Assembly (NCBI GenBank): GCA_017439545.1
Contig: JAFSIW010000058.1
Location: 1-37,548, forward strand
Direction of reading: 5' to 3'
DNA from: Clostridia bacterium
GTDB taxonomy: Bacteria > Bacillota > Clostridia > Oscillospirales > Acutalibacteraceae
DNA length: 37,548 bases
Part shown: piece by piece, positions 10,293 to 37,173 of the stretch
Position numbering within the stretch: the stretch's first letter is position 1
Layout of the letters: each line of letters starts with the position of its first letter
The notes under the pieces: generated by a model
What the model was told of the DNA's origin: nothing
The model's input: only the letters and a program-made list of their open reading frames with translations
Databases searched by the model: none
Program-made: the position numbers and the translations under genes

Positions 10293-10574
10293 GTGGCGAA
10301 AAAAAAGACAAAAAAGCCTATGGCGGCAACAATGGAAGAATGGTTGCATTTGCCCAATGGAATTATGGAGAGCAACAGTAAGATTTCGCTCATAGGTAGC
10401 CGTGAACTGTGCATGGAAGGGTGTAAAGGGATTTTAGAGTATACTGACGGGCTGATTCGCATTCATTGCGGAAACCGACAGCTGAAGGTGCTGGGACGAA
10501 ATTTGTCCGTTCGTGTACTGGAGCGGGATTATGTTGAGGTGGAAGGCATCATTTTTTCATTGACATTTGATTGA
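10293..10574 (+). CDS. yqfC: YqfC-family sporulation protein
   Basis: A 93-residue protein of the YqfC family, which is paired with yqfD in sporulating Firmicutes and is sigma-E controlled in Bacillus subtilis (family knowledge). It shows the family pattern WLHLPNGIM...ISLIGSRELCMEGCKGILEY...LKVLGRNLSVRVL. I chose GTG 10293 because TTGGGAG sits 9 bases upstream and the lysine-rich N-terminus then matches relatives; ATG 10269 lacks a ribosome binding site. A CATAGTAT element (10252-10259) is like a sigma-E -10 box, but I find no convincing -35. It precedes yqfD by 19 bases, so the two form one unit. Confidence 0.85.
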   Translation: MAKKKTKKPMAATMEEWLHLPNGIMESNSKISLIGSRELCMEGCKGILEYTDGLIRIHCGNRQLKVLGRNLSVRVLERDYVEVEGIIFSLTFD

Positions 10575-10593
10575 TGAGTTTAGGAGGATTCGG

Positions 10594-11766
10594 ATGCAAA
10601 ATTGGATTGGCATGATTTTAGGAACATTGACCGTTCGTGTGACAGGCGGTTCACATGAGCGTTTTATGAATCTATGTGCAGTATATAACAGAGATATGTG
10701 GGACTTTCGCGCAGAGGGAGACAGTATTACCGTAAAGGTACGGGCTTCGGAATATAAAAATCTGCGCAAGGCCGCTCACCGTGCAGGTGTGCGGCTAAAG
10801 ATCATAAAAAGGCACGGGATACCTTTTTGGCTCAGAAGATATAAAAATCGATACGGTTTGGTGGCAGGCATTCTGGTTTTTTGCTTGCTGCTTTCCTTTT
10901 TTAGCAGTCGAATCTGGGTGATTCGTATGCGGGGCGTGGAGGGAGAGATAGAGCAGCAAATTCTTACACAAATGAAGCAAGAGGGTATTACCTTGGGTAC
11001 TCGAACCTCTGCATTTGACTTTGCTACTGTCCGCCAAAAGCTTATTGTGGCTTGTCCGCAAATTTCTTGGATGTCTCTCAATCCATCCGGGTCGGTGCTT
11101 AACGTGGACGTTAGTTTGCGAACGGCACCGCCGTTGGTACTGGATCACCAGCAACCCTGCAATTTGATTGCTTCTGTGGATGGAACCATCCTTTCTATGA
11201 ATATCAAAAACGGTGACCCGATGGTCAAGGTTGGAGACGGGGTGGTGAAAGGGGATCTATTGGTTAGCGGAGCAGTGGAATATGCCGATGGTTGCACCGT
11301 GTTTCGCAAGGCGGAAGGGGAGATTTTAGCCGAAACCAAGCATCGGGTAACCTTTCAAGTGCCGTATGAACAAACTCATTCATGTTATACGGGCAAAACG
11401 AAACGTCGTTATGCCTTTCACTTTTTCGGATTATCTCTGCCGCTGTATATTGGTAGTGTTTCCGGTACGTATGAAAAAACCGATCGTTACCGGCCATTGG
11501 TAATCGATCAGGTAGCATTGCCCATTGGTATCTATGAAAGCAAATTTGCCTTAACTCAGCCGCTGACAGTACATTTGTCTCGTGAGGAGGCAGTGGCCGA
11601 GGCCACCGAAAAAACAATGGAATACGTTTCTCAGTCCTTACCGAACTGTGAAATAACCGCCATCAACTATCAAAAAGAGTTCACGAGCACACATGCGCTG
11701 GTAACGGCAGAAATTTTGTGCAAAGAAAATATCGCTTTTGCAGAAAAAATGTTGATTTTCCAATGA
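10594..11766 (+). CDS. yqfD: YqfD sporulation membrane protein
   Basis: A 390-residue YqfD-family protein (called stage IV in some annotations). The N-terminal about 85 residues are soluble. One clear membrane helix lies at about 90-107 (GLVAGILVFCLLLSFF). The rest, about 280 residues, is probably outside the cytoplasmic membrane and resembles a POTRA-like plus beta-rich fold. ATG 10594 has an ideal AGGAGG six bases upstream; the in-frame ATG at 10567 overlaps the end of yqfC. The order yqfC-yqfD-phoH-ybeY-era is the conserved Firmicutes order, which supports the call. Confidence 0.9.
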   Translation: MQNWIGMILGTLTVRVTGGSHERFMNLCAVYNRDMWDFRAEGDSITVKVRASEYKNLRKAAHRAGVRLKIIKRHGIPFWLRRYKNRYGLVAGILVFCLLLSFFSSRIWVIRMRGVEGEIEQQILTQMKQEGITLGTRTSAFDFATVRQKLIVACPQISWMSLNPSGSVLNVDVSLRTAPPLVLDHQQPCNLIASVDGTILSMNIKNGDPMVKVGDGVVKGDLLVSGAVEYADGCTVFRKAEGEILAETKHRVTFQVPYEQTHSCYTGKTKRRYAFHFFGLSLPLYIGSVSGTYEKTDRYRPLVIDQVALPIGIYESKFALTQPLTVHLSREEAVAEATEKTMEYVSQSLPNCEITAINYQKEFTSTHALVTAEILCKENIAFAEKMLIFQ

Positions 11767-15153: not shown

Positions 15154-17544
15154 ATGGAACATACTATTTCAAAAAAACATATTCGTGTACTGGAGCTACC
15201 CAAGGTTTTGGATCGGCTTTCTTTGCTTTGTCATTGCGAAGATTCTGCTCAGCTTGCCTTAAACATTGAACCCCAAAGCAACCTGACCGATGCTAACCGC
15301 CTGCTTTCTCAAACTGTGGAGGCTTATACTCTCACGGCTCGTTACGGTGCTCCTTCGTTTGGCGGCATGACCAACGTAAACGGATGCCTCACCCGCGCGT
15401 CGGCGGGGGGCAGCCTTTCTATGGCAGAACTTCTTCGGGTGGCAGAAACCCTGCGGGTGATTCGCTCGCTGAAACAATGGCAAGAGAATCACGCGCCCAC
15501 TACAGATGCTCTTGCGGTGTATTTTGATGTGTTGCAACCCAACACCTACTTAGAAAACCGTATCACGACCGCTATTATCAGCGAAGAAGAAATGAGCGAC
15601 CAGGCGTCGCCTGCACTGGCAGATATCAGGCGGAAAATGCGCAATGCGTCCGGCAAGGTGCGGGAACAGTTGGACCGTTTGATCCGTAATAAATCCATGC
15701 AAAAGTATTTGCAGGACGCCATCGTCACCATTCGCGGCGGTCGGTTTGTAGTTCCTGTTAAAGCGGAATACCGTAGTGAGGTGGCAGGACTGGTTCATGA
15801 TACGTCATCATCGGGATCTACTTTGTTTATTGAGCCCACCGCCGTGGTAGAGGCCAATAACGAGATCAAGGTGCTGGAATCTAAGGAGCGGGAAGAGATC
15901 GAGCGGGTGCTCGCTCTATTGTCTGCCGAGGCAGGCTCCTTTGCTGACGGAATTAAGATTGGTTTTTCAGCTTGCTGTTCGTTGGATCTCGTCTTTGCCA
16001 AGGCCAAACTCGCCTTTGATATGAAGGCCTCTCAGCCGGAATTGAACGATCAAGGCATTATTGATTTACACAAAGCCCGTCATCCTTTATTAGATCCTCT
16101 CAAGGTTGTGGCAACCGACATTCGTTTGGGCACGGATTTTGACACCCTGGTTATTACAGGGCCCAATACAGGCGGTAAAACCGTTTCTCTGAAAACCTTA
16201 GGATTACTTACTCTGATGGGAATGTGCGGTATGATGATCCCTGCATCCGATCACTGTAAGCTTTCGGTATTCAACCACGTGTTTGCCGACATTGGTGACG
16301 AGCAGAGTATCGAGCAATCGCTGTCAACCTTCTCCGCCCATATGACCAATATGATCGAGATATTGAAACGCGTTGATGATCGCAGTTTGGTTTTAGCAGA
16401 CGAATTGGGATCGGGGACCGATCCGGTTGAAGGAGCGGCGCTTGCCACTGCAATTTTAGAAACCTTGCGCCTACGCGGCGCGCGGGTTGCCGCCACCACC
16501 CATTATGCGGAACTGAAAGCTTACGCCCTGCAAACCGAAGGGGTAGAAAATGCTTGCTGTGAATTTGACGTGGCTACCTTGCGCCCAACCTATCGGTTGC
16601 TGATCGGGATGCCCGGACGTTCCAATGCTTTCGCTATTTTGCATCGACTTGGAATGGAAGAAGCGGTTATTGCACGTTCCCGACAGTTGGTGTCTACCGA
16701 GAATCAGCAGTTTGAGCAGGTGGTGGAAAAATTAGAAAAATCCCATACCGATTTGGAGGAAGAACGGCTGGAGATTGCCGCTTTGCGACGTCAGGCACAG
16801 GAAATTGCCGCCAAAGCCGCCAAAGAACGGGAAGAACTGCAAAAAGAGCGAGAGAAAATTTTGGAGCAAGCCAAACGCACCTCCCACGATATGGTTGAAA
16901 AGACCAGAGCGCAGGCGCAGCAGGTAATGGATCAGTTAGAGCAGTTGAAGAAAGAGTCTAACAGTGAAAATGCAGCGCAAATACTTCGACGCGCAAAGGC
17001 AGAAATGAGCGGCGGCTTGCGCCGCTTGGAGGATACCGCTGATCCTGTGGATCAGACCGGTCGCTCCGCGTATCGTTTACCTCGTCCCTTGCAGGCGGGC
17101 GACAACGTGCTGATTGCCGACATTGACAAAAAAGGCGTAGTATTGACCCCGCCCGATGCTTCCGGCTATGTTTTTGTACAAGCGGGTATCATCAAAACCA
17201 AGGTGCCGCTTGAAAATTTGCGGCTGTTAGAGCAAGAAAAAGCTCAGATACCAAAAGCGGAAAAGCGGACAATTGGCATCGAATCTCGTGGACTTCGTAA
17301 GGTTTCTACCGAACTGGATCTGCGTGGGAAAGCCTCTGACGAGGGCTTGTTTGAAGTGGATCAGTTTATTGACCAGGCGGTTCTCAGCGGCATAGAGAGT
17401 GTTGTAATCATCCACGGGAAAGGCACAGGCGTGCTGCGACAAGCGGTTCGGCAGCATTTGAAATCCCACCGAAGCGTTGTCTCCTTTCGACGTGGACAGT
17501 ACGGCGAGGGAGAAGACGGTGTAACCGTGGTTACCTTAAAATAA
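15154..17544 (+). CDS. mutS2: MutS2 family ATPase/endonuclease
   Basis: A 796-residue MutS2 protein. In Firmicutes MutS2 acts on branched DNA and on collided ribosomes rather than in mismatch repair. The N-terminal core lacks the mismatch-recognition domain of MutS. The ATPase has Walker A GPNTGGKT (336-343) and Walker B LVLADELGSGTDP. A long charged coiled coil follows (about 515-620). The C-terminal Smr nuclease domain begins at about residue 719 with LDLRG and has HGKGTG. The length is usual. It ends the housekeeping run and has its own terminator. Confidence 0.96.
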   Translation: MEHTISKKHIRVLELPKVLDRLSLLCHCEDSAQLALNIEPQSNLTDANRLLSQTVEAYTLTARYGAPSFGGMTNVNGCLTRASAGGSLSMAELLRVAETLRVIRSLKQWQENHAPTTDALAVYFDVLQPNTYLENRITTAIISEEEMSDQASPALADIRRKMRNASGKVREQLDRLIRNKSMQKYLQDAIVTIRGGRFVVPVKAEYRSEVAGLVHDTSSSGSTLFIEPTAVVEANNEIKVLESKEREEIERVLALLSAEAGSFADGIKIGFSACCSLDLVFAKAKLAFDMKASQPELNDQGIIDLHKARHPLLDPLKVVATDIRLGTDFDTLVITGPNTGGKTVSLKTLGLLTLMGMCGMMIPASDHCKLSVFNHVFADIGDEQSIEQSLSTFSAHMTNMIEILKRVDDRSLVLADELGSGTDPVEGAALATAILETLRLRGARVAATTHYAELKAYALQTEGVENACCEFDVATLRPTYRLLIGMPGRSNAFAILHRLGMEEAVIARSRQLVSTENQQFEQVVEKLEKSHTDLEEERLEIAALRRQAQEIAAKAAKEREELQKEREKILEQAKRTSHDMVEKTRAQAQQVMDQLEQLKKESNSENAAQILRRAKAEMSGGLRRLEDTADPVDQTGRSAYRLPRPLQAGDNVLIADIDKKGVVLTPPDASGYVFVQAGIIKTKVPLENLRLLEQEKAQIPKAEKRTIGIESRGLRKVSTELDLRGKASDEGLFEVDQFIDQAVLSGIESVVIIHGKGTGVLRQAVRQHLKSHRSVVSFRRGQYGEGEDGVTVVTLK

Positions 17545-17551
17545 ATAAAGT

Positions 17552-17755: not shown

Positions 17756-17771
17756 AGAAAGGTGGATGCAT

Positions 17772-20700
17772 ATGAAATTACTTCGTCCCATGTCTTGGCT
17801 TTTGATTTTATCCTTGCTTGCAACTATGGCTGTTACCTTTGCTGTAGCCGATATCCGCTTGTATGGTGATGCAGACGGTGATGAAAAAATCAGCGCAGGG
17901 GATGCACTTACCATCCTTCGCCACGTTGTAGGGAAGAGCAAGTTAGAAGGGGAGCGGGCAATTGTTGCCGATGTAAGCGGTACCGACGGCATCAGCGCCC
18001 AGGATGCCCTGCTGGTTTTGCAATACGTTGTGGGAAAGATTAAGGTGTTTCCCGCTGAAGAACTTGCGGTTTTGGGTGAGAATCTAAAAACCGTTCCCCA
18101 ATTGATTGATACAAAATCCTTTGCAACGCCGATTGCACCTGTTGAAATTAACGAAGCATTCAACACCCTCACTCAGATCAACCAGGCCTACTCACCGTTG
18201 TATGATTTGGACGTTGACTGTGTCTTGGCTTACGTTTACGGCTTCAATCACGGCGCAATGCCGTCGGATTGGGTCGAGAATAAAACCTCCTACGGCGATA
18301 CGGATACCATTGGTATTATGATTGCTGTTAACCGCGACAATGGGGAATACCTAAGGCTTCATCCTGATCGGGGCATGAAAGATGTGCAAACGAAATTTGA
18401 CGGCACATATCGTCAGCATTCCGCTTTTGGCGATACCCCCGTATATTATATGGTACCTACCGATCCATATATTGAGTATAAGTGGGAGGTAATTGATAGT
18501 TATCTAAAGACCGGTCACGTAAAGGTTGTAGCATTGGAAGAGCCTGAATTGTGGAACAATGCAGGATATTCCCAAGGATATCAAGAGGCGTATGAAGCCC
18601 ACTTCGGTGAAGATTGGGAAGATTTTGATCTGAACGCCGATGCTATGTGGAAGAATCAATTTTTTAAAGCGTATGTGTTCAAACACGCCTTTGAGGTGCT
18701 CTCCCGTCGCATCAAAGAGAACTATCCCGACGTGTCGGTTCTGATTACCTCTCACAGTGGTTTGAGCTACAGCAGTCACGGTATTTCTACGGGTCTGGCT
18801 ATGTATGCCGATATTGACACCATTGACGGCGTGATAGGGCAGACTTGGTCAGACGATGCCAGTCAAGCTTTTCCGTACGGTGGTAAAAATATCTCTAATA
18901 TCTATATGAATGCGATGTATGCCTACAACAGCTACGGTGAGGCGTTACAAAGCGGGCAGACCTTGTATTTGTTGCAAGATCCTGCATCGGATAACGGCAA
19001 TCTTTCTGCCGAAACCAAAGAAGAAAACTGGAGAAATACGGTGGTAGCCGCTATGATGCAAAATGATACCACCTCTTTCCAATCTACCATTTGGCCGCAA
19101 CGGGCGTTTCAGGCGGCAGGTATGGATTATAAAACTGCTCAATTAAACATCAACCGTATGTTCCAAGAAATGCACACGCTGTCCGGTAACGTATACAGCG
19201 GTACAACGGGCATTGCGTTGGCCACTTCGGATTCCTTGGGTTGGCATTTGAACAGCCGTGACGTTTTAACCGGAAACAGCCGCGCTTCTGTGTCGGGTAT
19301 CTATCTATCATTGCTTAATGATGGTATCCCCGTGGATACAGTGTGTTTAGACAACCTGACAGATGTTTCCCAATTGGCGGACGTTAATTTGCTGATGGTT
19401 TCTTATGATGCCATAAAGCCCTTAAGTGAGAAGGTCAATCGGGTTTTGGCACAATGGGTTAAAGAAGGCGGACGGCTTTTGTATTTGGGCGGTCACGATG
19501 GCTTTACCGACATTACCTGCGAATGGTGGTTTCAAAAAGAAACCACTCCCTATAACGATCTGCTTACACAGTTGGGTCTGACCGACGTGATCACCACGGT
19601 CGGTGACGTACGCGGAGATTCCAAGCCTGTTTGGGCAGGAAGCTCCTTTAGCGACAATAGCACGATCAATTCTCAATACTGTTCCCGCACTATTACCTTT
19701 GACGGCAGCGGCTTTCGTACCTTTATTACCGCCGATGGCAAGAATCTTGGTATCAGCGCCGACGTGGGCGAAGGAAAGGCCATCTTTGTGGGCTTGCCAT
19801 CTTCTTATTATTCCTTGCATATGGACAATGAAATGGTGGTTCGCGAACTCGCCGCATATGCATTAGAGGGTAGCGACACACCCTATTACAGCGCCGACTT
19901 CTTTGCTGCTCAGCGTGGTGACTATTTTGCATATTACAGCCCTAATGGATATCATAAAACGGCTGAGGATCGCACATATGTGAATCTGTTTTCTTCTAAC
20001 TTAGATGTTGTTGTCAGCGGCACCTCTTTGGTACGCGGTGAACCCGTATTGCTGTATGATGCAACCGAAGAGGATAACGATAGCATTCCTCGGGTAGGCT
20101 TTACCGGTGGCACCGAAATGGCTGAGCGAGTCGAAAGTGCAACCGAAACCAAATATACCATTGCCGCACCCACGTCCTCCGTTCCCGCTACCGTGTTGTT
20201 CGGCAACGGAAAATTCCCCCAATCGGTTAAGGCACAAACACTTTCGGGCATCGGCGTATCGGTGATTACAGCCTGGGATTCCTATTCTGATTCTTTGGTG
20301 GTGAAAGCCAATATTCCCAACGTAAATGATCCTGTTGTGTTTACGGTAACTTGGGGCGATACCGAAGTAGAATTGCCCACCAACTATATCTTTGACAGCT
20401 TTACGCACTTTACCAAGGATTCTTTTGACAAAGATCCGCTGGTGGAAAGTCACACATGTCACGTTAACGGCGGTTGCTATTTCTGTGACCTTGATACCCA
20501 CGTGATTTGGAAAATCGATCTGGAACAATATATTCAAGCAAGTATGACCTTGGATATTTTCGGTAATTACAAAGTTGAAGTTTCCTTTGACGGAGTCAAT
20601 TGGAAAACGGTTGCCGATTGGTCGGAAGAAGGCAAACCGGTTGGCGTGTTAGCTGACGGCAGCAAGGTGGACGGCGCATCTAACCGCAGAGACCTGACCA

Positions 20701-20846
20701 TATCCGCTAACTCCTATTCCGAAGCAGGCAAGTATATGTACGTGAAATTGGGAAGCTGTTATATGTATACACCCGAACATCCCGGCGGGGACCACGGCGG
20801 CTCCGTGTACAACTATACCCTGACCTATTTGACCACTGCAAAATAA
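17772..20846 (+). CDS. secreted dockerin-bearing protein of unrecognised, possibly glycoside hydrolase, family
   Basis: A 1024-residue exported protein. Residues 1-26 form a signal peptide ending FAVA before D27. Two type I dockerin repeats follow: GDADGDEKISAGDALTILR (32-50) and DVSGTDGISAQDALLVLQ (67-84). Their calcium loops are complete in the first and weaker in the second. From about 140 comes a domain shared with the next gene, with EEPELW (256-261), GQTWSD, QDPASDNG and IWPQRAF. A GATase-like part follows (LLYLGGHDGFT, about residues 575-584). The last about 155 residues look like a jelly-roll binding domain (NYKVEVSFDGVNWKTV). I do not recognise the catalytic family. The layout recalls barrel plus amidotransferase-like domains of some glycosidases. 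ATG 17772 follows AAAGGTGG by six bases. Confidence 0.75.
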   Translation: MKLLRPMSWLLILSLLATMAVTFAVADIRLYGDADGDEKISAGDALTILRHVVGKSKLEGERAIVADVSGTDGISAQDALLVLQYVVGKIKVFPAEELAVLGENLKTVPQLIDTKSFATPIAPVEINEAFNTLTQINQAYSPLYDLDVDCVLAYVYGFNHGAMPSDWVENKTSYGDTDTIGIMIAVNRDNGEYLRLHPDRGMKDVQTKFDGTYRQHSAFGDTPVYYMVPTDPYIEYKWEVIDSYLKTGHVKVVALEEPELWNNAGYSQGYQEAYEAHFGEDWEDFDLNADAMWKNQFFKAYVFKHAFEVLSRRIKENYPDVSVLITSHSGLSYSSHGISTGLAMYADIDTIDGVIGQTWSDDASQAFPYGGKNISNIYMNAMYAYNSYGEALQSGQTLYLLQDPASDNGNLSAETKEENWRNTVVAAMMQNDTTSFQSTIWPQRAFQAAGMDYKTAQLNINRMFQEMHTLSGNVYSGTTGIALATSDSLGWHLNSRDVLTGNSRASVSGIYLSLLNDGIPVDTVCLDNLTDVSQLADVNLLMVSYDAIKPLSEKVNRVLAQWVKEGGRLLYLGGHDGFTDITCEWWFQKETTPYNDLLTQLGLTDVITTVGDVRGDSKPVWAGSSFSDNSTINSQYCSRTITFDGSGFRTFITADGKNLGISADVGEGKAIFVGLPSSYYSLHMDNEMVVRELAAYALEGSDTPYYSADFFAAQRGDYFAYYSPNGYHKTAEDRTYVNLFSSNLDVVVSGTSLVRGEPVLLYDATEEDNDSIPRVGFTGGTEMAERVESATETKYTIAAPTSSVPATVLFGNGKFPQSVKAQTLSGIGVSVITAWDSYSDSLVVKANIPNVNDPVVFTVTWGDTEVELPTNYIFDSFTHFTKDSFDKDPLVESHTCHVNGGCYFCDLDTHVIWKIDLEQYIQASMTLDIFGNYKVEVSFDGVNWKTVADWSEEGKPVGVLADGSKVDGASNRRDLTISANSYSEAGKYMYVKLGSCYMYTPEHPGGDHGGSVYNYTLTYLTTAK

Positions 20847-20865
20847 GTGAAAGGATGCTTTTTCA

Positions 20866-23154
20866 ATGAATACCAAACAGCAGAAAATTCAAATTCCATA
20901 CTTTCAAAATGCCGACGGATTTTGCTATCCCTTAACCAATTTCAACGTTCCCGAAAACGGTGTGGTTACTCTGTATCAATGTAACGCAGGGTATAACCCC
21001 GTTTATGACGTGCATACCGACTGTATGTTGGCTTACGTTTATGGCATCAACAACGGCGGAGCATTGGATAGCTGGGTAAAGGCCAAGCATACCTACGGCG
21101 ATAAAACGGTCATCGGTCTTATGGTTGCCATCAACCGTGACAGCGGTGAATACGTGGAAGAATATGCAGGCGAGCGGGGGTTGATGGACGTACAGACCCG
21201 CGCAGACGGCACGTTCCGTCAGCATTCGGTGATGGGTCCTCACAATATTTATTATATGGTCCCCACCGAGCCTTACGTGGAATACAAATGGAAAGTATTG
21301 CAACACTTTTTAGATACCGGCTTTGTGAAAGTGGTTACCTTTGAAGAACCTGAGTTGTGGAATGATGCCGGCTTTTCCGAAGGCTTTAAAGAAGAATGGG
21401 TTAAGTATTATAAAATGCCTTTCCAAGATCCGAGAGAATCGGCACAAGCGCGCTATCGCAGTCAATATTTAAAAGCGTGGCTGTTTTATGATGCCGTTCG
21501 TAAGCTATCTGAGCGGGTCAAGGAAAAATATCCCGATATTCAAGTGATCTTACCCTCCCACAGTATTGACGACTATTGTGCACATGGCATTGCCACCAAC
21601 TTATCGATGTTCTCCTCGGTGCCTCAGGTGGATGGCTTCATCGGTCAAACCTGGTCGGACGGGGTAGTTCGTCCTTTGCCCTATGCAGGGGAAGAGCGTG
21701 AGAATCCCTTTGCTACTGCGGTGACCCAATATCGGTCATACCGTCCTTTCCTCAAAAAAGAGCATGCGCTCTATTTGTTGCAAGACCCCGCTTCGGACAA
21801 CGGCTCTCTTACCCAAGCCCAAAAAGAAGAACGCTGGAAGAAGACGGTTGTGGCATCGGTCATGCAAGACGATACTGTGCTTTCACAGTTTACCATTTGG
21901 CCGCAACGGGCGTTTTCTGCCGCTACTCCCGATTATCGCACCATTCAATTGAACGTGTACAAAATGTACTACGAAATGGCCGGTCTGCAAGGCGCGATTT
22001 ATGCGGGCTCGTCTGGTATTGGGTTCGGTTTGTCCGATACTGCCAGTTGGTGTATTGGTGAAGAACATAATCCCACGGGGAAAAGCCTTGCCACCATCTT
22101 TGGCATTTCGATGCAGTTGATTGAGGATTGCATTTTGCCCGATATTATTGCCTTGGATACGTTGACCGACGTCAAACAACTTGCCCACATGCGCGTTCTT
22201 TTGGTGGCCTATGACGTAATGAAGCCCCTTTCCGAAACTGTAAATGACGTGCTTGCCCGGTGGGTAAAGCAGGGTGGACGTTTATTGGTGGTTGGCGGCG
22301 ACGATGGGTTTACCCATATGGAGGACGCTTGGTGGAGCCAAAAGGGTACGACACCCTTAAAGGATCTGCTTGCTAAGGTGGATGTTTCTGCTACAGTATC
22401 GTCTGCTCAATTGAGCGATGTTATCCCTGCTTTGCAAGGTACTGATTTGTCGCAGGAAACCTGCATTCAAGGGGAGTATGCTAAACGCGCCCTCGCATTT
22501 GAAGGAGAAACTCTTGTACCTGTTATGACCGCCAACGGCAAAACCGTTGCTTTTACCGCTAAAGCAGGACAAGGCGTGATTGGCGCATTGGGTCTTCCGT
22601 CTTCCTATTTCTCCCTTTCACGTTCGAATGAAGATTTGCTTCGTACTTTGTGGCAAATCATGTTAGAAGGAGACTCTGTTGGTTACGTTCCGGCTGATAC
22701 CATTGCCGCCTGCCGTGGACAATATATTGCCTTGTGGGGTTCAAAGGATTTGGCTTTCAATGAAGATAAGATCTTTTTAAATCTGTTTGATTCTGCCTTG
22801 ACTCCTATGAAGGGCGGATTGCTTGAAAAAGGTCTGACCGCCTTCTTGTTTGACGTGACCGATCAGTTGAACGCCAAACGACCCTGCCTGCTGTTCACCG
22901 GCGGCGTGGAACAAGCGCCTACCGTTACGACCGATAACAGCGTTACTTTTACCATTGCACAGCCTGCCGATTCTACGTCTTCCAGTATGATCTATCACGC
23001 GGGTCGTAAAGTAAAAACGTTAACTGCTGTTACATCTGACGGTGCGCAGGTTACGTTGGAACGTAAAGCCTATCCGGAGTTTGATATGGAACTGTTGCAG
23101 TATTACTGCACCAATATCGATACACCTTTGACTGTTACTGTGGAATGGGAATAA
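20866..23154 (+). CDS. cytoplasmic paralog of the dockerin-bearing protein
   Basis: A 762-residue protein that aligns end to end with the middle of the gene before it. Shared blocks include LAYVYGxNxG, DVQTxxDGTxRQHS, YYMVPTxPYxEYKW, FEEPELWN (E160, E161, E163), GQTWSD, LLQDPASDNG, IWPQRAF and GGDDGFTHMEDAWW. It has no signal peptide, no dockerin and no C-terminal jelly-roll part, so it should act inside the cell. It starts 19 bases after its paralog with AAAGGATG upstream, so the two are one operon. Conserved acidic residues in EEPEL are candidates for catalysis (inference). Family not recognised. Confidence 0.75.
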   Translation: MNTKQQKIQIPYFQNADGFCYPLTNFNVPENGVVTLYQCNAGYNPVYDVHTDCMLAYVYGINNGGALDSWVKAKHTYGDKTVIGLMVAINRDSGEYVEEYAGERGLMDVQTRADGTFRQHSVMGPHNIYYMVPTEPYVEYKWKVLQHFLDTGFVKVVTFEEPELWNDAGFSEGFKEEWVKYYKMPFQDPRESAQARYRSQYLKAWLFYDAVRKLSERVKEKYPDIQVILPSHSIDDYCAHGIATNLSMFSSVPQVDGFIGQTWSDGVVRPLPYAGEERENPFATAVTQYRSYRPFLKKEHALYLLQDPASDNGSLTQAQKEERWKKTVVASVMQDDTVLSQFTIWPQRAFSAATPDYRTIQLNVYKMYYEMAGLQGAIYAGSSGIGFGLSDTASWCIGEEHNPTGKSLATIFGISMQLIEDCILPDIIALDTLTDVKQLAHMRVLLVAYDVMKPLSETVNDVLARWVKQGGRLLVVGGDDGFTHMEDAWWSQKGTTPLKDLLAKVDVSATVSSAQLSDVIPALQGTDLSQETCIQGEYAKRALAFEGETLVPVMTANGKTVAFTAKAGQGVIGALGLPSSYFSLSRSNEDLLRTLWQIMLEGDSVGYVPADTIAACRGQYIALWGSKDLAFNEDKIFLNLFDSALTPMKGGLLEKGLTAFLFDVTDQLNAKRPCLLFTGGVEQAPTVTTDNSVTFTIAQPADSTSSSMIYHAGRKVKTLTAVTSDGAQVTLERKAYPEFDMELLQYYCTNIDTPLTVTVEWE

Positions 23155-24132: not shown

Positions 24133-24157
24133 GAGATAAATAAATGAGGTGATGATT

Positions 24158-25960: not shown

Positions 25961-27439
25961 ATGACTGATACAAGTATATACAATGATATTGCAAAACGGA
26001 CGGATGGGAATATCTATATTGGAATTGTCGGACCGGTTCGTACGGGGAAATCTACGCTAATCAAGCGGTTTATGGACACAATGGTTGTACCATATATTGA
26101 AGGAGAGTACCAACGAGAGCGAGCCATCGATGAACTGCCCCAATCAGCAGCAGGACGCACCATTATGACCACAGAACCAAAATTTATCCCCGAGGAAGCA
26201 GTGAAAATTCAGTTAGATGGTGTGTCTGAATTTTCGGTACGAATGGTAGATTGTGTTGGTTACATTGTTCCAAGTGCATTAGGGTATGTGGAAGAGGATA
26301 AGCCTCGTATGGTACAAACACCGTGGTTTGATGAAGAGATTCCCTTTAATATGGCAGCCGAGATCGGCACGCAAAAGGTAATTACCGAGCATTCCACCAT
26401 TGGTATTGTTGTGACCACCGATGGGAGCATCAGCGATATTGACCGCACGGAATATGAAGAAGCGGAAGAACGTGTGATTCGCGAGCTGCAACAAATTCAT
26501 AAGCCCTTCGTCGTGTTGATGAATTGCGTCGAGCCCGATTCTGATTCAGCCAAGGATCTGACGCAGGCTATGAGTGAGAAATACGGAGTACCGGTTCTTG
26601 CGGTCAATTGTTTAGAACTGACGCAGGAGGATATTCAACAAATTTTATCCCGTATTTTGTATGAGTTTCCCATGCAAGAAGTGTTGATCGACCTCCCGGA
26701 TTGGTTTAAAGGCTTGCAACAGGATCACTGGTTAAAACAAGAGGTGTTTCAGGTGATCGGCTCAACTGCCGATCGGATCACTAACGTTCGTACGGTGAAT
26801 CTTTTAGAGGAAGCCTTGCTGGAAAATGAGCATATTCGCAGTGCGCAGGTGCAATCGGTGGAATTAGGATCGGGACGTGCGACTATAGCTGTTGGTTTAC
26901 ATAACAACCTTTTCTATCGGATTTTAACCGAAGAAACAGGACTGGATATTTGCGGTGAAGAAGGTCTTATGGGATGCTTAATTGAATTGTCAGACATTAA
27001 AAAACGGTATGAGAAGGTGCGCGCTGCCTTGGATGATGTAGAGCGGGTTGGATACGGCATTGTGATGCCGGAAAAAGAAGAAATGACCTTGGAAGAACCG
27101 GAAATAATGAAGCAGGGCGGACAATACGGCGTGCGATTGAAAGCCAAAGCGCCATCGATTCATATGATGCGAGCAGATATTAAAACCGAGGTTACTCCTG
27201 TGGTGGGATCGGAAAAGCAATCGGAGGATCTGGTTCGGTATTTGCTGTCTGGCTTCGAAGATGATCCTACTCAAATTTGGGATTCCAATATCTTCGGTAA
27301 ATCATTACACGATTTGGTCAATGAAGGATTACATGCAAAACTTGCCCGTATGCCGCAAGATGCCCGTAATAAAATTCAGGAAACCATTTCTCGTGTCATT
27401 AACGAAGGGTGCAGCGGTTTGATTTGTATCATTTTGTAA
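25961..27439 (+). CDS. spoIVA: stage IV sporulation protein A, spore coat morphogenetic ATPase
   Basis: A 492-residue protein that polymerises, with ATP hydrolysis, on the outer forespore membrane and forms the base layer of the coat. The N-terminal GTPase-like fold has Walker A GPVRTGKST (24-32) and the highly conserved N-terminal stretch SIYNDIAKRTDGNIYIGIVG. The C-terminal region, needed for membrane anchoring in Bacillus, ends in the short hydrophobic tail GLICIIL. Length equals that of B. subtilis SpoIVA. It stands alone between two terminators behind a sigma-E promoter. Confidence 0.97.
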   Translation: MTDTSIYNDIAKRTDGNIYIGIVGPVRTGKSTLIKRFMDTMVVPYIEGEYQRERAIDELPQSAAGRTIMTTEPKFIPEEAVKIQLDGVSEFSVRMVDCVGYIVPSALGYVEEDKPRMVQTPWFDEEIPFNMAAEIGTQKVITEHSTIGIVVTTDGSISDIDRTEYEEAEERVIRELQQIHKPFVVLMNCVEPDSDSAKDLTQAMSEKYGVPVLAVNCLELTQEDIQQILSRILYEFPMQEVLIDLPDWFKGLQQDHWLKQEVFQVIGSTADRITNVRTVNLLEEALLENEHIRSAQVQSVELGSGRATIAVGLHNNLFYRILTEETGLDICGEEGLMGCLIELSDIKKRYEKVRAALDDVERVGYGIVMPEKEEMTLEEPEIMKQGGQYGVRLKAKAPSIHMMRADIKTEVTPVVGSEKQSEDLVRYLLSGFEDDPTQIWDSNIFGKSLHDLVNEGLHAKLARMPQDARNKIQETISRVINEGCSGLICIIL

Positions 27440-28597: not shown

Positions 28598-29962
28598 TTA
28601 GTTTTTGAGACTGTGCATGGGAGCAGGAATGCGACCGCCACGGTTAATGAATACCGAGGGCGAAGCAGTGTTGACCGGCATGATAGGACCACTTCCCAAC
28701 AATCCACCAAAGTCTAATTCTTCGCCCATGGATTTGCCGATGGCGGGAATCAACCGTACGGCGGTGGTTTTGGAGTTGACCATACCTATGGCGGCTTCGT
28801 CGGCAATGATGCCCGAAATTACGTCAGCGGTGGTGTCGCCGGGAATGACGATCATATCCAGACCCACCGAGCATACAGCGGTCATTGCTTCTAATTTTTC
28901 TAATTTAAGACAACCGCTGCGAGCGGCGTCGATCATACCCGCATCTTCCGAAACGGGAATAAAAGCGCCCGAAAGTCCACCTACGTGAGAAGAAGCCATC
29001 ACGCCGCCTTTTTTAACCGCATCGTTGAGCATAGCAAGGCAAGCGGTGGTACCGCATCCGCCGCAGGTTTCCAAGCCCATCTCCTCTAAAATATGAGCCA
29101 CCGAGTCACCAACGGCAGGCGTGGGGGCAAGGGACAAGTCCACAATACCGAAGGGCACGCACAGCCGACGGGAGGCTTCTCTGGCAACCAATTGACCCAT
29201 ACGGGTGATTTTGAAGGCAGTGCGTTTAATGGTTTCGGCTAATACGTCAATGGAGCAGTCCTTGCCGCATTTTTTTAAGGCAGCTACCACAACACCGGGA
29301 CCGGAAACACCTACGTTGATGACGCAATCAGCTTCACCGGGACCGTGGAATGCACCTGCCATAAAGGGGTTGTCTTCGGGAGCATTGCAAAATACCACCA
29401 ATTTGGCGGCACCAATGCAGTTGTTGTCTGCAGTTAACTCGGAGCAACGGCGAATCACCTTGCCCATTTTAGCGACGGCGTCCATATTGATACCCGCCTT
29501 GGTGCTACCGATGTTGACCGATGAACATACGTTGGTGGTTTCGGCTAATGCTTCGGGAATGCTTTCGATCAGTGCATAATCGCCTGCGGAAAAGCCCTTG
29601 TGTACCAAAGCGGAATATCCACCGATAAAATTGATTCCCAAGGTATCGGCTGCATTTTGTAAAGCGTGAGCAAATTTTTTCACTTCAGCACCGGGACAAG
29701 CAGCAGCCAACATAGCGATAGGGGTGACAGAAATCCGTTTGTTGATGATGGGAATTCCGAATTCCTTTTCAATGCCCTCGCAAACAGAAACAAGATTTTC
29801 GCCATAAGCTGTGATTTTGTCATATACTTTCCGGCATGCTTTATCAATATCACTGTCAATACAAGAAAGCAATGAGATCCCCATAGTGACAGTGCGGATA
29901 TCCAAATGCTCCTGTTGGATCATATTAATGGTTTCTAAAACATCCTGATAGGAGTAATTCAT
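28598..29962 (-). CDS. UPF0210 (PFL/DUF711 family) protein
   Basis: A 454-residue cytoplasmic protein of the conserved UPF0210 family. The N-terminus [31 protein letters not shown] and Gly/Ala-rich central blocks such as [20 protein letters not shown] are typical. The enzymatic role is not known. It follows the ACT-domain gene by 11 bases with AAGGAGG before its ATG. This pairing (UPF0237 with UPF0210) is widely conserved, which suggests an amino-acid- or ligand-sensing partner for the larger protein. Confidence 0.92.
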
Positions 29963-33732: not shown

Positions 33733-34740
33733 ATGGCTAATAATGTTAAATTCGAAGGTAAAGAAAGAAGAATGGCTAAAATCGAAGCTTGTCTGGCTGA
33801 ATACGGTCTGGAAAGCTTGGAAGCCGCCCGTGATCTTTGCCTCTCCAAAGGCATCGACGTAGATGCTATCGTTCGCGGTGTACAACCCATCGCTTTTGAA
33901 AATGCTGTTTGGGCTTACACCCTCGGTGTTGCCGTTGCCCTCAAAAAAGGCATCACCAACGCTTCTGACGCCGCCGCCGCTATCGGTATCGGCTTGCAAG
34001 CATTCTGTATCCCCGGCTCTGTTGCCGAACAACGGAACGTTGGTCGCGGCCACGGTAACTTGGGCGCTATGCTGTTGAAAGAAGAAACCAAGTGCTTCTG
34101 CTTCTTGGCAGGTCACGAATCTTTCGCTGCTGCTGAAGGTGCTATCGGTATTGCCCGTACCGCCAACAAAGTTCGTAAAGAACCCCTGCGTGTTATCTTG
34201 AACGGTTTGGGTAAAGATGCTGCTTACATCATTTCCCGTATCAACGGTTTTACCTATGTGAAGACCGATTACGATTTCTTCACCGGCGAACTGAAGATCG
34301 AAGAAGAACGTGCTTTCTCTGATGGCGAAAAAGCCAAGGTTCGTTGCTATGGTGCTAACGACGTTTTGGAAGGCGTAGCCATCATGCAAAAAGAAGGTGT
34401 TGACGTTTCCATCACCGGTAACTCCACTAATCCCACCCGTTTCCAACATCCTGTTGCAGGTACCTATAAGAAATGGGCTTTGGAAAATGATAAGAAATAC
34501 TTCTCCGTTGCTTCGGGCGGCGGTACCGGACGTACCCTGCACCCCGATAACATGGCTGCCGGCCCTGCTTCTTACGGCTTGACCGATACCATGGGTCGTA
34601 TGCACGGCGACGCTCAATTTGCCGGCTCTTCTTCCGTTCCTGCTCACGTAGAAATGATGGGTCTGATCGGTATGGGTAACAACCCCATGGTAGGCGCCAC
34701 CGTTGCTTGCGCTGTTGCAGTGGAAGAATCTGCGAAATAA
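33733..34740 (+). CDS. GGGtGRT family protein
   Basis: A 335-residue protein of the uncharacterised GGGtGRT family; the name-giving motif SGGGTGRT is at 261-268, followed by a Gly/Ala-rich C-terminal block ending MVGATVACAVAVEESAK. The many GIG, GVA and GGG turns suggest an alpha/beta enzyme. Its biochemical role is unknown, but the NifU-like partner suggests it carries or receives an iron-sulfur cluster. AAGGAGG lies before the ATG. Codons are almost limited to preferred ones (GCT, GGT, CGT, AAC, ATC), as for the most abundant proteins. A strong terminator follows. Confidence 0.92.
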   Translation: MANNVKFEGKERRMAKIEACLAEYGLESLEAARDLCLSKGIDVDAIVRGVQPIAFENAVWAYTLGVAVALKKGITNASDAAAAIGIGLQAFCIPGSVAEQRNVGRGHGNLGAMLLKEETKCFCFLAGHESFAAAEGAIGIARTANKVRKEPLRVILNGLGKDAAYIISRINGFTYVKTDYDFFTGELKIEEERAFSDGEKAKVRCYGANDVLEGVAIMQKEGVDVSITGNSTNPTRFQHPVAGTYKKWALENDKKYFSVASGGGTGRTLHPDNMAAGPASYGLTDTMGRMHGDAQFAGSSSVPAHVEMMGLIGMGNNPMVGATVACAVAVEESAK

Positions 34741-36239: not shown

Positions 36240-37103
36240 TCAGTTTCCCTCCTTACTAAATAAGTGAGTTCGGATGCTATCCAAGGTGATTTCGGCGGCG
36301 GTTAAAGGGGCGTACAATGCGGGCAGCGATAAGGCCTGGATACACTGTATGCCCTGCTTATCTGCATAGACAAAGTCTACGCCGCCCGGTTTTGAAGCCA
36401 AGTCAATAATCAGCGTTGAGGAATCCTGCTTCTGTAATACATTGTTTGTCACCACAAGAGCAGGAACGGTATTGAAAACAATATCAAAGCGCCCGGCCTT
36501 ATCAAGATCCTTCGTTTCAATAGGAACAGCGTCGGTTTTTCTAATGTCGTCCAAATCGGTGGATTTTCTTGCTGTTGCGGTTACTTGGCATCCCATTTTT
36601 ATGAGAAGCGACACCAAGTGCTTGCCGATATTTCCGTATCCGATCACGCATACCTTGGCGTTTCTCAAAATGTAAGGGGTGTGACGCATCGCCAATTCGA
36701 TAGCACCTTCTGCAGAGGGTAGACCGTTTTGATATTGAAATGCGGGATCACGTCCGTAATCAAAGTAATCGATATTTCTCTCCTTTAGCTTGTCAACAAA
36801 ATAGTTTGGAAACAAACCGCCGCATACTATGTTCCTTTTTGTAAATGAATCAAACAGAGCATTCAAGGAAATGTTGCGCTCACTGAAAGGAGCGAATAGT
36901 TTGATTCCGTCTTTTGTGATGGGTATAGGTAAAATTATGATTGACTCGGCAGGAATCTTATCAGTGATCATTACTTCGGTTGACATTTGATCACAACGCT
37001 CTAACCCTATGCTTGTAACGGTTGCACCATGTTTTAACAGGATATCTGCTATATATTTTTGTCGAATATCCCCGCCAATTAAGACGCATTCCTTATTGGT
37101 CAT
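36240..37103 (-). CDS. dpaA: dipicolinate synthase subunit A
   Basis: The 287-residue NAD(P)-dependent subunit of dipicolinate synthase, active in the mother cell. An N-terminal substrate domain is followed by a Rossmann fold with VCVIGYGNIGKHLVSLL, then a block with DIVFNTVPALVV and LIIDLASKPGGVDF, all typical of SpoVFA/DpaA. ATG 37103 is chosen because AAAGG lies 10 bases upstream and the family N-terminus (ECVLIGGDIRQKYIADIL) begins right after it. Presence of both subunits means this organism need not use the EtfA route found in clostridia that lack spoVF. Confidence 0.96.
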   Translation of the reverse strand: MTNKECVLIGGDIRQKYIADILLKHGATVTSIGLERCDQMSTEVMITDKIPAESIIILPIPITKDGIKLFAPFSERNISLNALFDSFTKRNIVCGGLFPNYFVDKLKERNIDYFDYGRDPAFQYQNGLPSAEGAIELAMRHTPYILRNAKVCVIGYGNIGKHLVSLLIKMGCQVTATARKSTDLDDIRKTDAVPIETKDLDKAGRFDIVFNTVPALVVTNNVLQKQDSSTLIIDLASKPGGVDFVYADKQGIQCIQALSLPALYAPLTAAEITLDSIRTHLFSKEGN

Positions 37104-37144
37104 ACCATCAAATCCTTTCAATAAAATGCACACAGGAAGATTAG

Positions 37145-37173
37145 TACATCCTATGCGCAATTTGATGGTATGT
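37145..37173 (-). promoter_or_regulatory. candidate sigma-K-type promoter of dpaA
   Basis: On the minus strand, AC (37172-37173), 16 bases and CATAGGATGTA (37145-37155). This agrees with the sigma-K form (AC, 16-17, CATAnnnTA) except for one base. dpaAB (spoVF) is sigma-K controlled in Bacillus. The short motif makes this tentative. I see no good sigma-A promoter here. Confidence 0.35.

Follow-up and report, generated by a model that had tools for sequence, protein, structure and literature searches.

The DNA considered here, 37,548 nucleotides of a Clostridia bacterium of the family Acutalibacteraceae (contig JAFSIW010000058.1 of assembly GCA_017439545.1; hereafter the window), carries two neighbouring genes, A and B, which probably encode two forms of an unnamed glycoside-hydrolase-like family built on the GH42 domain plan. 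The two proteins share a core which in A is about 750 residues long and runs from a barrel through a GH42-like Rossmann domain to a beta domain (Table 1). Between the stop codon of A and the start codon of B lie 19 bases. The start of A at 17772 (MKLLRPMSWLL...) is plausible, with another in-frame ATG at 17766 and the mechanical open reading frame (ORF) beginning with a GTG at 17550. A and B are 42.5% identical across 757 aligned residues (blastp E = 0.0), and four blocks are exact in both, namely EEPELW (residue 256 in A, 160 in B), GQTWSD (356 and 260), QDPASDNG (402 and 306) and IWPQRAF (440 and 344). Both ORFs and their common domain, with these blocks, had been described in a first-pass annotation of the window, and the description holds.

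The same is true of the export and dockerin signals that the annotation placed on A and not on B, since the dockerin of A lies above the Pfam cut-off (PF00404, E 4.2e-6, 27.3 versus 22.9 bits) and B consists of the core alone, the signal peptides having been judged by eye in both cases. The C-terminal domain of A, previously called jelly-roll-like, has no Pfam match above cut-off. When the domain is combined with its five relatives in a profile, there is a weak 31-position match (E 0.0028) to the hyaluronoglucosaminidase chain 2w1q, a chain that we take to be a CBM32 domain, with which the earlier description is compatible, short of proof.

Table 1. Genes A and B, their predicted parts and the gene directly upstream (all on the forward strand; residue numbers are those of B).
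Feature	Position	Strand	Remarks
Gene A	17772..20846	+	1024 aa from MKLL; signal peptide, type I dockerin, core, C-terminal domain
Signal peptide of A	17772..17849	+	about 26 residues; read by eye
Type I dockerin of A	17862..18029	+	PF00404; protein-level score 27.3 bits, genome-search score 34 bits
Core of A as cut for alignments	18078..20360	+	B-matching span 18093-20354; about 43% identity
C-terminal domain of A	20361..20843	+	about 160 aa; domain shared by five related proteins; weakly CBM32-like
Gene B	20866..23154	+	762 aa; core alone, without dockerin; signal peptide absent by eye
Predicted TIM barrel of B	20953..21990	+	about residues 30-375; hhalign against the GHL6 barrel and conservation; borders approximate
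Residues inside the predicted barrel of B			E160/E161/E163, D256, D307, D311
GH42-like Rossmann (trimerisation-type) domain of B	21991..22695	+	about residues 376-610; hhalign; borders approximate
MutS2 (presumed)	15154..17544	+	directly upstream of A; named from sequence knowledge

The core itself is an unnamed family, widespread in Firmicutes. When A and B were compared with Pfam the dockerin was the sole match above cut-off, and against NCBIfam A gave nothing and B one sub-threshold match. Weak Pfam matches appear among 15 members of the family, to DUF4350 in six and to GLMA_2nd in three (best E 2.1e-4), B scoring 13.3 bits against GLMA_2nd, which is below the cut-off of 27.7. The GH42 model PF02449 does not match A or B at E up to 0.1, the GH112 model PF09508 does not match A, B or the 15 members, and the GHL6 model PF14871 (cut-off 35 bits) does not match the 15 members at E up to 10 with HMMER filters that drop most weak hits. 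Against the PDB, B alone found no credible chain (best E 0.72) and the 15-member profile found the beta-galactosidase 6jow across the second domain only (E 2.9e-6). No description of the core family was found in the literature, which is weak evidence because the family has no name to search by. The suggestion that the family is unrecognised and may be new is thus borne out as to its lack of a Pfam or NCBIfam name, although the family is not rare, with at least 545 loci.

Evidence for the fold comes from profile comparison, in which 77 family members were aligned by hhalign to alignments of GH42 (9 sequences), GHL6 (11) and GH112 (7), built from genomes found with the respective Pfam models. 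The hhalign E-values refer to a single comparison and not to a database, and sets of 61 permuted or reversed targets served as controls for the domain comparisons singled out below. The whole family scored 96.2% with GH42, 94.4% with GHL6 and 21.1% with GH112. Taken separately, the second, Rossmann domain scored 96.8%, 76.5% and 9.8% with the same three families, and the barrel 69.7% with the GHL6 barrel, 0.9% with GH112 and 0.4% with GH42. None of the 61 controls reached the observed score for the barrel with GHL6 or for the second domain with any of the three families, whereas 17 of 61 were as good as the observed match of the barrel to GH42. With seven unrelated families the barrel scored 0.1-0.3% and the second domain 0.1-2.6%; a set that we take from sequence knowledge to be GH29-like gave 0.2% with the family barrel and 98.9% with the GHL6 barrel. 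Together the scores and controls support a plan in which a predicted TIM barrel related to GHL6 is followed by a GH42-like Rossmann domain, with the barrel link moderate. The first-pass annotation had read the core as a barrel followed by an amidotransferase-like fold, as in some glycosidases, and had proposed a profile-profile search; the outcome of the hhalign comparison, together with 6jow over the second domain, agrees with its reading.

All 77 aligned members (residue numbers of B) carry E161, K203, K219, D256, Y289 and D311; 76 carry E160 and 74 carry E163, and D307, H232, W345 and R348 are each present in 75. The alignment of the barrel with GHL6 spans 225 columns (299 on realignment) at 9-10% identity and lays the EEPE motif over the strand-4 acid of GHL6. 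Strand 4 carries the acid/base in GH42 and the nucleophile in GH29, so the alignment does not fix the role of E160/E161. The most likely catalytic acids, judged from sequence, would be the pairs that lie where strands 4 and 7 end, E160/E161 and D307/D311 respectively, the strand numbers and the assignment of roles both being inferred. The core of A retains these candidate residues.

The closest known systems each resemble the core in part. GHL6 shares the barrel, the position of the strand-4 acid and the Rossmann domain, with the family members missing its Pfam model and differing from it at about nine in ten aligned positions; we know of no characterised GHL6 enzyme. The GH42 beta-galactosidases share the Rossmann domain and the domain order, but differ in the barrel, and, on the inferred strands, in the strand-4 motif, which is EEPE in the core, and in the strand-7 candidates, which are Asp in the core and Glu in GH42. 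The likeness to 6jow and, weakly, to GLMA_2nd is confined to the second domain and does not extend to a barrel. Another comparison is with the GH164 beta-mannosidase Bs164, for which the published description gives a barrel at residues 22-389, a trimerisation domain at 390-609 and a beta domain at 610-681, with Glu160 as acid/base and Glu297 as nucleophile (PMC7105311). By that description the three-domain layout is the same and the domain borders and the strand-4 glutamate carry nearly the same numbers, whereas the nucleophile Glu297 contrasts with the core candidates Asp307/311 (PMC7105311). The PDB matches include no Bs164 chain, and Bs164 is compared here by description and not by sequence.

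The family reaches far beyond the genus of the window. A scan of genome contigs with an alignment of distant relatives returned at least 594 pattern matches, at least 545 of them confirmed by tblastn, and the best 80 were kept. By record title these 80 belong to Lachnospiraceae, Oscillospiraceae, Paenibacillus, Cohnella, Bacillus, Alicyclobacillus and other Firmicutes, and their core ORFs are 713-851 residues long. Eighteen dockerin proteins of the window's own genome served to build a dockerin model, which at E up to 10 detects no dockerin in any of the 80; as a control, the same model recovers A and the supplied dockerin copies. The same type of contig scan with B as single query gave 16 pattern matches and no relative, two scans of viral contigs gave none either (10 pattern matches with alignment A2, 37 with A3), and a plasmid collection held one relative, annotated 'hypothetical protein'. 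Of 98 genomes searched, the window's own included, 10 have a core match. Four of the five genomes of the genus are among them (the window's own, G001, G002 and G004), the genome search of the fifth, G003, finding no core match. The G002 copy (L037, G002:C6) is split and has a stop within the second piece; it is either a broken gene or an assembly error. Of the six core copies in the window's own genome (1.88 Mb, 87% complete), five have a dockerin and, by eye, a signal peptide.

A tree of 27 rows places B and A apart. B clusters with its orthologs from G004 (73% identity) and G001 (47%), with support of 99 and 100, and no dockerin was found in these three, the G001 copy ending at a contig end with its N-terminus out of sight. 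A falls inside sets of seven (support 98) and nine (96) dockerin-bearing rows; L034, a tenth such row, takes no resolved position. A local tandem duplication giving rise to A and B was considered and rejected, as the tree puts them in different clades. The label 'tandem paralogs' is therefore correct for their position only. In G004 (L035) MutS2 is succeeded at once by the B ortholog and then by a phosphoesterase gene, A being absent from between them, so that A was either inserted in the lineage of the window or lost in G004.

The dockerin of A belongs to a large set. The window's own genome has 86 dockerin matches, 85 above cut-off, and, in a search limited to PF00963 in this 87%-complete genome, two cohesin matches above cut-off and one below (L164:6063-6419, L165:439-867 and L166:9796-10092). 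The two strong matches are single cohesins in proteins of membrane-anchored look: by eye, each has a signal peptide, which one protein combines with a C-terminal membrane segment and the other with a linker rich in Thr, Pro and Ser and with NPATGD plus a membrane segment. A would accordingly be held at the membrane if the predicted binding takes place. The protein with the sub-threshold cohesin itself carries a dockerin, again by eye. Among 18 dockerin proteins compared with Pfam (L135-L161, many cut at the locus end) few have any Pfam enzyme domain, a GDSL lipase-like domain occurring in two and an F5/8 type C domain in one, and much of the genome's dockerin set seems to be unnamed. A report on the mucinolysome of Limousia deals with a gut bacterium rich in dockerin enzymes that serve glycan use, GH112 and GH42 being reported in most of 65 Limousia genomes (PMC12997984). 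The abundance of dockerin proteins is common to both; unlike Limousia as described there (PMC12997984), the window's genome has no GH112 match, and its GH42-like matches are partial, the best at 32 bits.

A second family in the genus shows a parallel division. Its members, about 900-1000 residues long, have a barrel resembling that of GH42 (hhalign 97.5%). In four genomes there are four orthologs that lack a dockerin match (L219, L228, L229 and L225, one cut short), each being the copy of the window's genome or 66-89% identical to it, and nine dockerin-bearing copies (at L217, L218, L221, L222, L224 and L226) are 30-43% identical to that dockerin-free copy. The partial row L223 was left unassigned, and the ORF L220, with no BLAST match to L219, was dropped. 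The tree separates the dockerin-free from the dockerin-bearing group with support of 100, at a point where long branches meet. This family was also tried as a bridge to the core and set aside, hhalign giving 0.1-0.3%, which is no match at that sensitivity.

The first-pass annotation had also suggested comparing the gene neighbourhoods of homologs, and in 28 of the 80 loci a GH38 or GH92 cluster lies near the core (GH38 in 19, GH92 in nine). For these counts the ORFs of the 80 loci were clustered and each cluster was named through one representative, with other clades of GH38 and GH92 left uncounted. ATP-binding cassette (ABC) permeases occur in 27 loci, a substrate-binding protein in 22, GntR-LacI regulators in 16, DUF5127/GtaA in 10, Gfo/Idh in 10 and GxGYxYP in four; at least one of GH38, GH92, GtaA, GxGYxYP, permease and binding protein is present in 38. 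The binding-protein cluster is presumably such, having been named from sequence knowledge, its representative being without a Pfam match. As background for GH38, 192 matches in 143.3 Mb of 30 host genomes correspond to about 0.03 per 22-kb locus, whereas 15 of the 30 loci from these hosts have one (binomial P about 1e-15, loci taken as independent). According to two earlier papers, N-glycan loci of streptococci and other Firmicutes combine GH38 and GH92 with an ABC transporter (PMC5215778), and elsewhere GxGYxYP proteins have GH92 and GH38 in their neighbourhood (PMC4071793). These neighbours lend indirect support, through distant relatives, to the claimed role in glycan breakdown, and with the published loci they make a mannose-containing substrate the best guess for those relatives; that the family acts on mannose-containing oligosaccharides is, from sequence, a tentative proposal.

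Other neighbours deserve mention. The cluster of glycyl radical enzymes (L060:7527-9728, L051, L069, L070, L071, L080, L085, L112 and L128) mostly stands with an activator, a radical-SAM activator being found in nine of the 80 loci; its representative lies far under every NCBIfam cut-off, and a C.E motif is present in a minority of the 10 ORFs of the cluster. In the window's own genome, the core copy on contig C85 (L032:8409-19997) is followed by genes for a sugar isomerase-like protein, a BadF kinase, a SIS protein, two DegT aminotransferases and a ceramidase-like protein and by dockerin genes, with lookalike ORFs, by eye, after its G004 counterpart (L048); this neighbourhood suggests amino-sugar use. 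The GH2 gene at 24149 had been proposed as a further step of the same pathway. In both readable relatives, G004 and G001, the gene after the B ortholog encodes a calcineurin-like phosphoesterase (L035, L036), and the link to GH2 in the window is consequently unsupported.

Several observations weigh against a glycosidase with the GH42 plan. GHL6 is the sole family that the barrel matches, with a moderate score of 69.7% and some 10% identity, whereas GH42 (0.4%), GH112 (0.9%) and the GH42-like family of the genus (0.3%) fail to match it. A PDB search with the larger profile A4 (62 sequences; 60 of the 80 loci hand-picked, 20 left out) gave no credible chain (best E 0.22). The neighbourhoods point to more than one pathway, with a glycyl radical enzyme in nine of the 80 loci and a calcineurin-like phosphoesterase in 20, and 42 loci have no counted glycan-type neighbour, some of the contigs being short. 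Related genomes make the loci non-independent, so that the P value for GH38 is overstated. Finally, the window's genome has four GH38 matches, none on a contig with a core copy, and no match to GH92; the mannose link thus rests on the distant relatives and is weaker for the genus. Part of this would suit a TIM-barrel enzyme of another class, such as an isomerase, epimerase or lyase, that has acquired a GH42-like second domain: the barrel is linked to GHL6 at moderate strength, the alignment places no catalytic residue with certainty, and glycyl radical enzymes or phosphoesterases accompany the core in some loci. We consider this unlikely, as a fair share of the neighbours with a name serve in glycan degradation or transport and a GH42-type second domain is typical of glycosidases.

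The conserved residues bear on two further possibilities. One dockerin copy of the genus (L045) has EEAG for EEPE, losing P162 and E163, and DAASD at the QDP.SD position, which also counts against the favoured reading. Since, in addition, copies go down to about 40% identity with B, the dockerin forms might be glycan-binding or structural proteins without catalysis, leaving the cytosolic copies as the enzymes. The chance of this seems slight, given that six of the seven dockerin copies in alignment A1 (A, L033, L034, L048, L049 and L050) keep EEPE, D256, Q261, W263, QDP.SD and WP.R. The invariant K203 and K219 and the nearly invariant R348 could, for their part, bind phosphate, as would be expected of a GH112-type phosphorylase, an inverting, phosphate-dependent enzyme with a similar three-domain layout whose cytosolic form B would save energy by phosphorolysis. 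The similar domain plan of GH112, the position of dockerin-free relatives next to ABC transporters, and the hhalign scores for the whole family and for the Rossmann domain, the latter equalled by no control, speak for such an enzyme; the barrel score of 0.9% speaks against it, as do the dockerins and (by eye) signal peptides on five of the six copies of the window's genome, which are odd for a phosphorylase. We hold a phosphorylase to be very unlikely. GH112 as the home of the family is at most weakly supported by hhalign, with PF09508 unmatched.

Elsewhere in the window are the sporulation genes SpoIVA (25961-27439), YqfD (10567-11763) and DpaA (36243-37160), so the organism is probably a spore former. 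The window also encodes a DUF711 protein (28601-29962) and a GGGtGRT protein (33733-34737), two families not known to have a defined function.

On the favoured reading, that A and B are two forms of a glycoside-hydrolase-like family, the family would at root be a widespread, dockerin-free and apparently cytosolic Firmicutes protein encoded near ABC sugar-transporter genes and often near genes of GH38 or GH92. In the genus of the window the core would have gained a signal peptide and a dockerin and then multiplied. A, tethered outside the cell to a cohesin anchored in the membrane, may trim a glycan at the surface, with B making the same type of cleavage on imported oligosaccharides; glycosidase activity, location and a mannose-containing substrate are all inferred. 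A wider proposal is quite possible, if a little short of probable: that this is a new glycoside hydrolase family and part of a matched inside and outside system of the genus, in which at least two enzyme families keep an inherited dockerin-free cytosolic copy, have multiplied their dockerin paralogs and cut the same bond on both sides of the membrane. The core, which has at least 545 loci, is named in neither Pfam nor NCBIfam and has acids that are strictly conserved in what is likely a barrel, makes a good candidate for a new family of glycoside hydrolases. Its dockerin copies would illustrate how a cytosolic enzyme is recruited to a cell-surface system, for which a 1.9-Mb genome with 85 dockerin and two cohesin matches above cut-off offers a compact study case.

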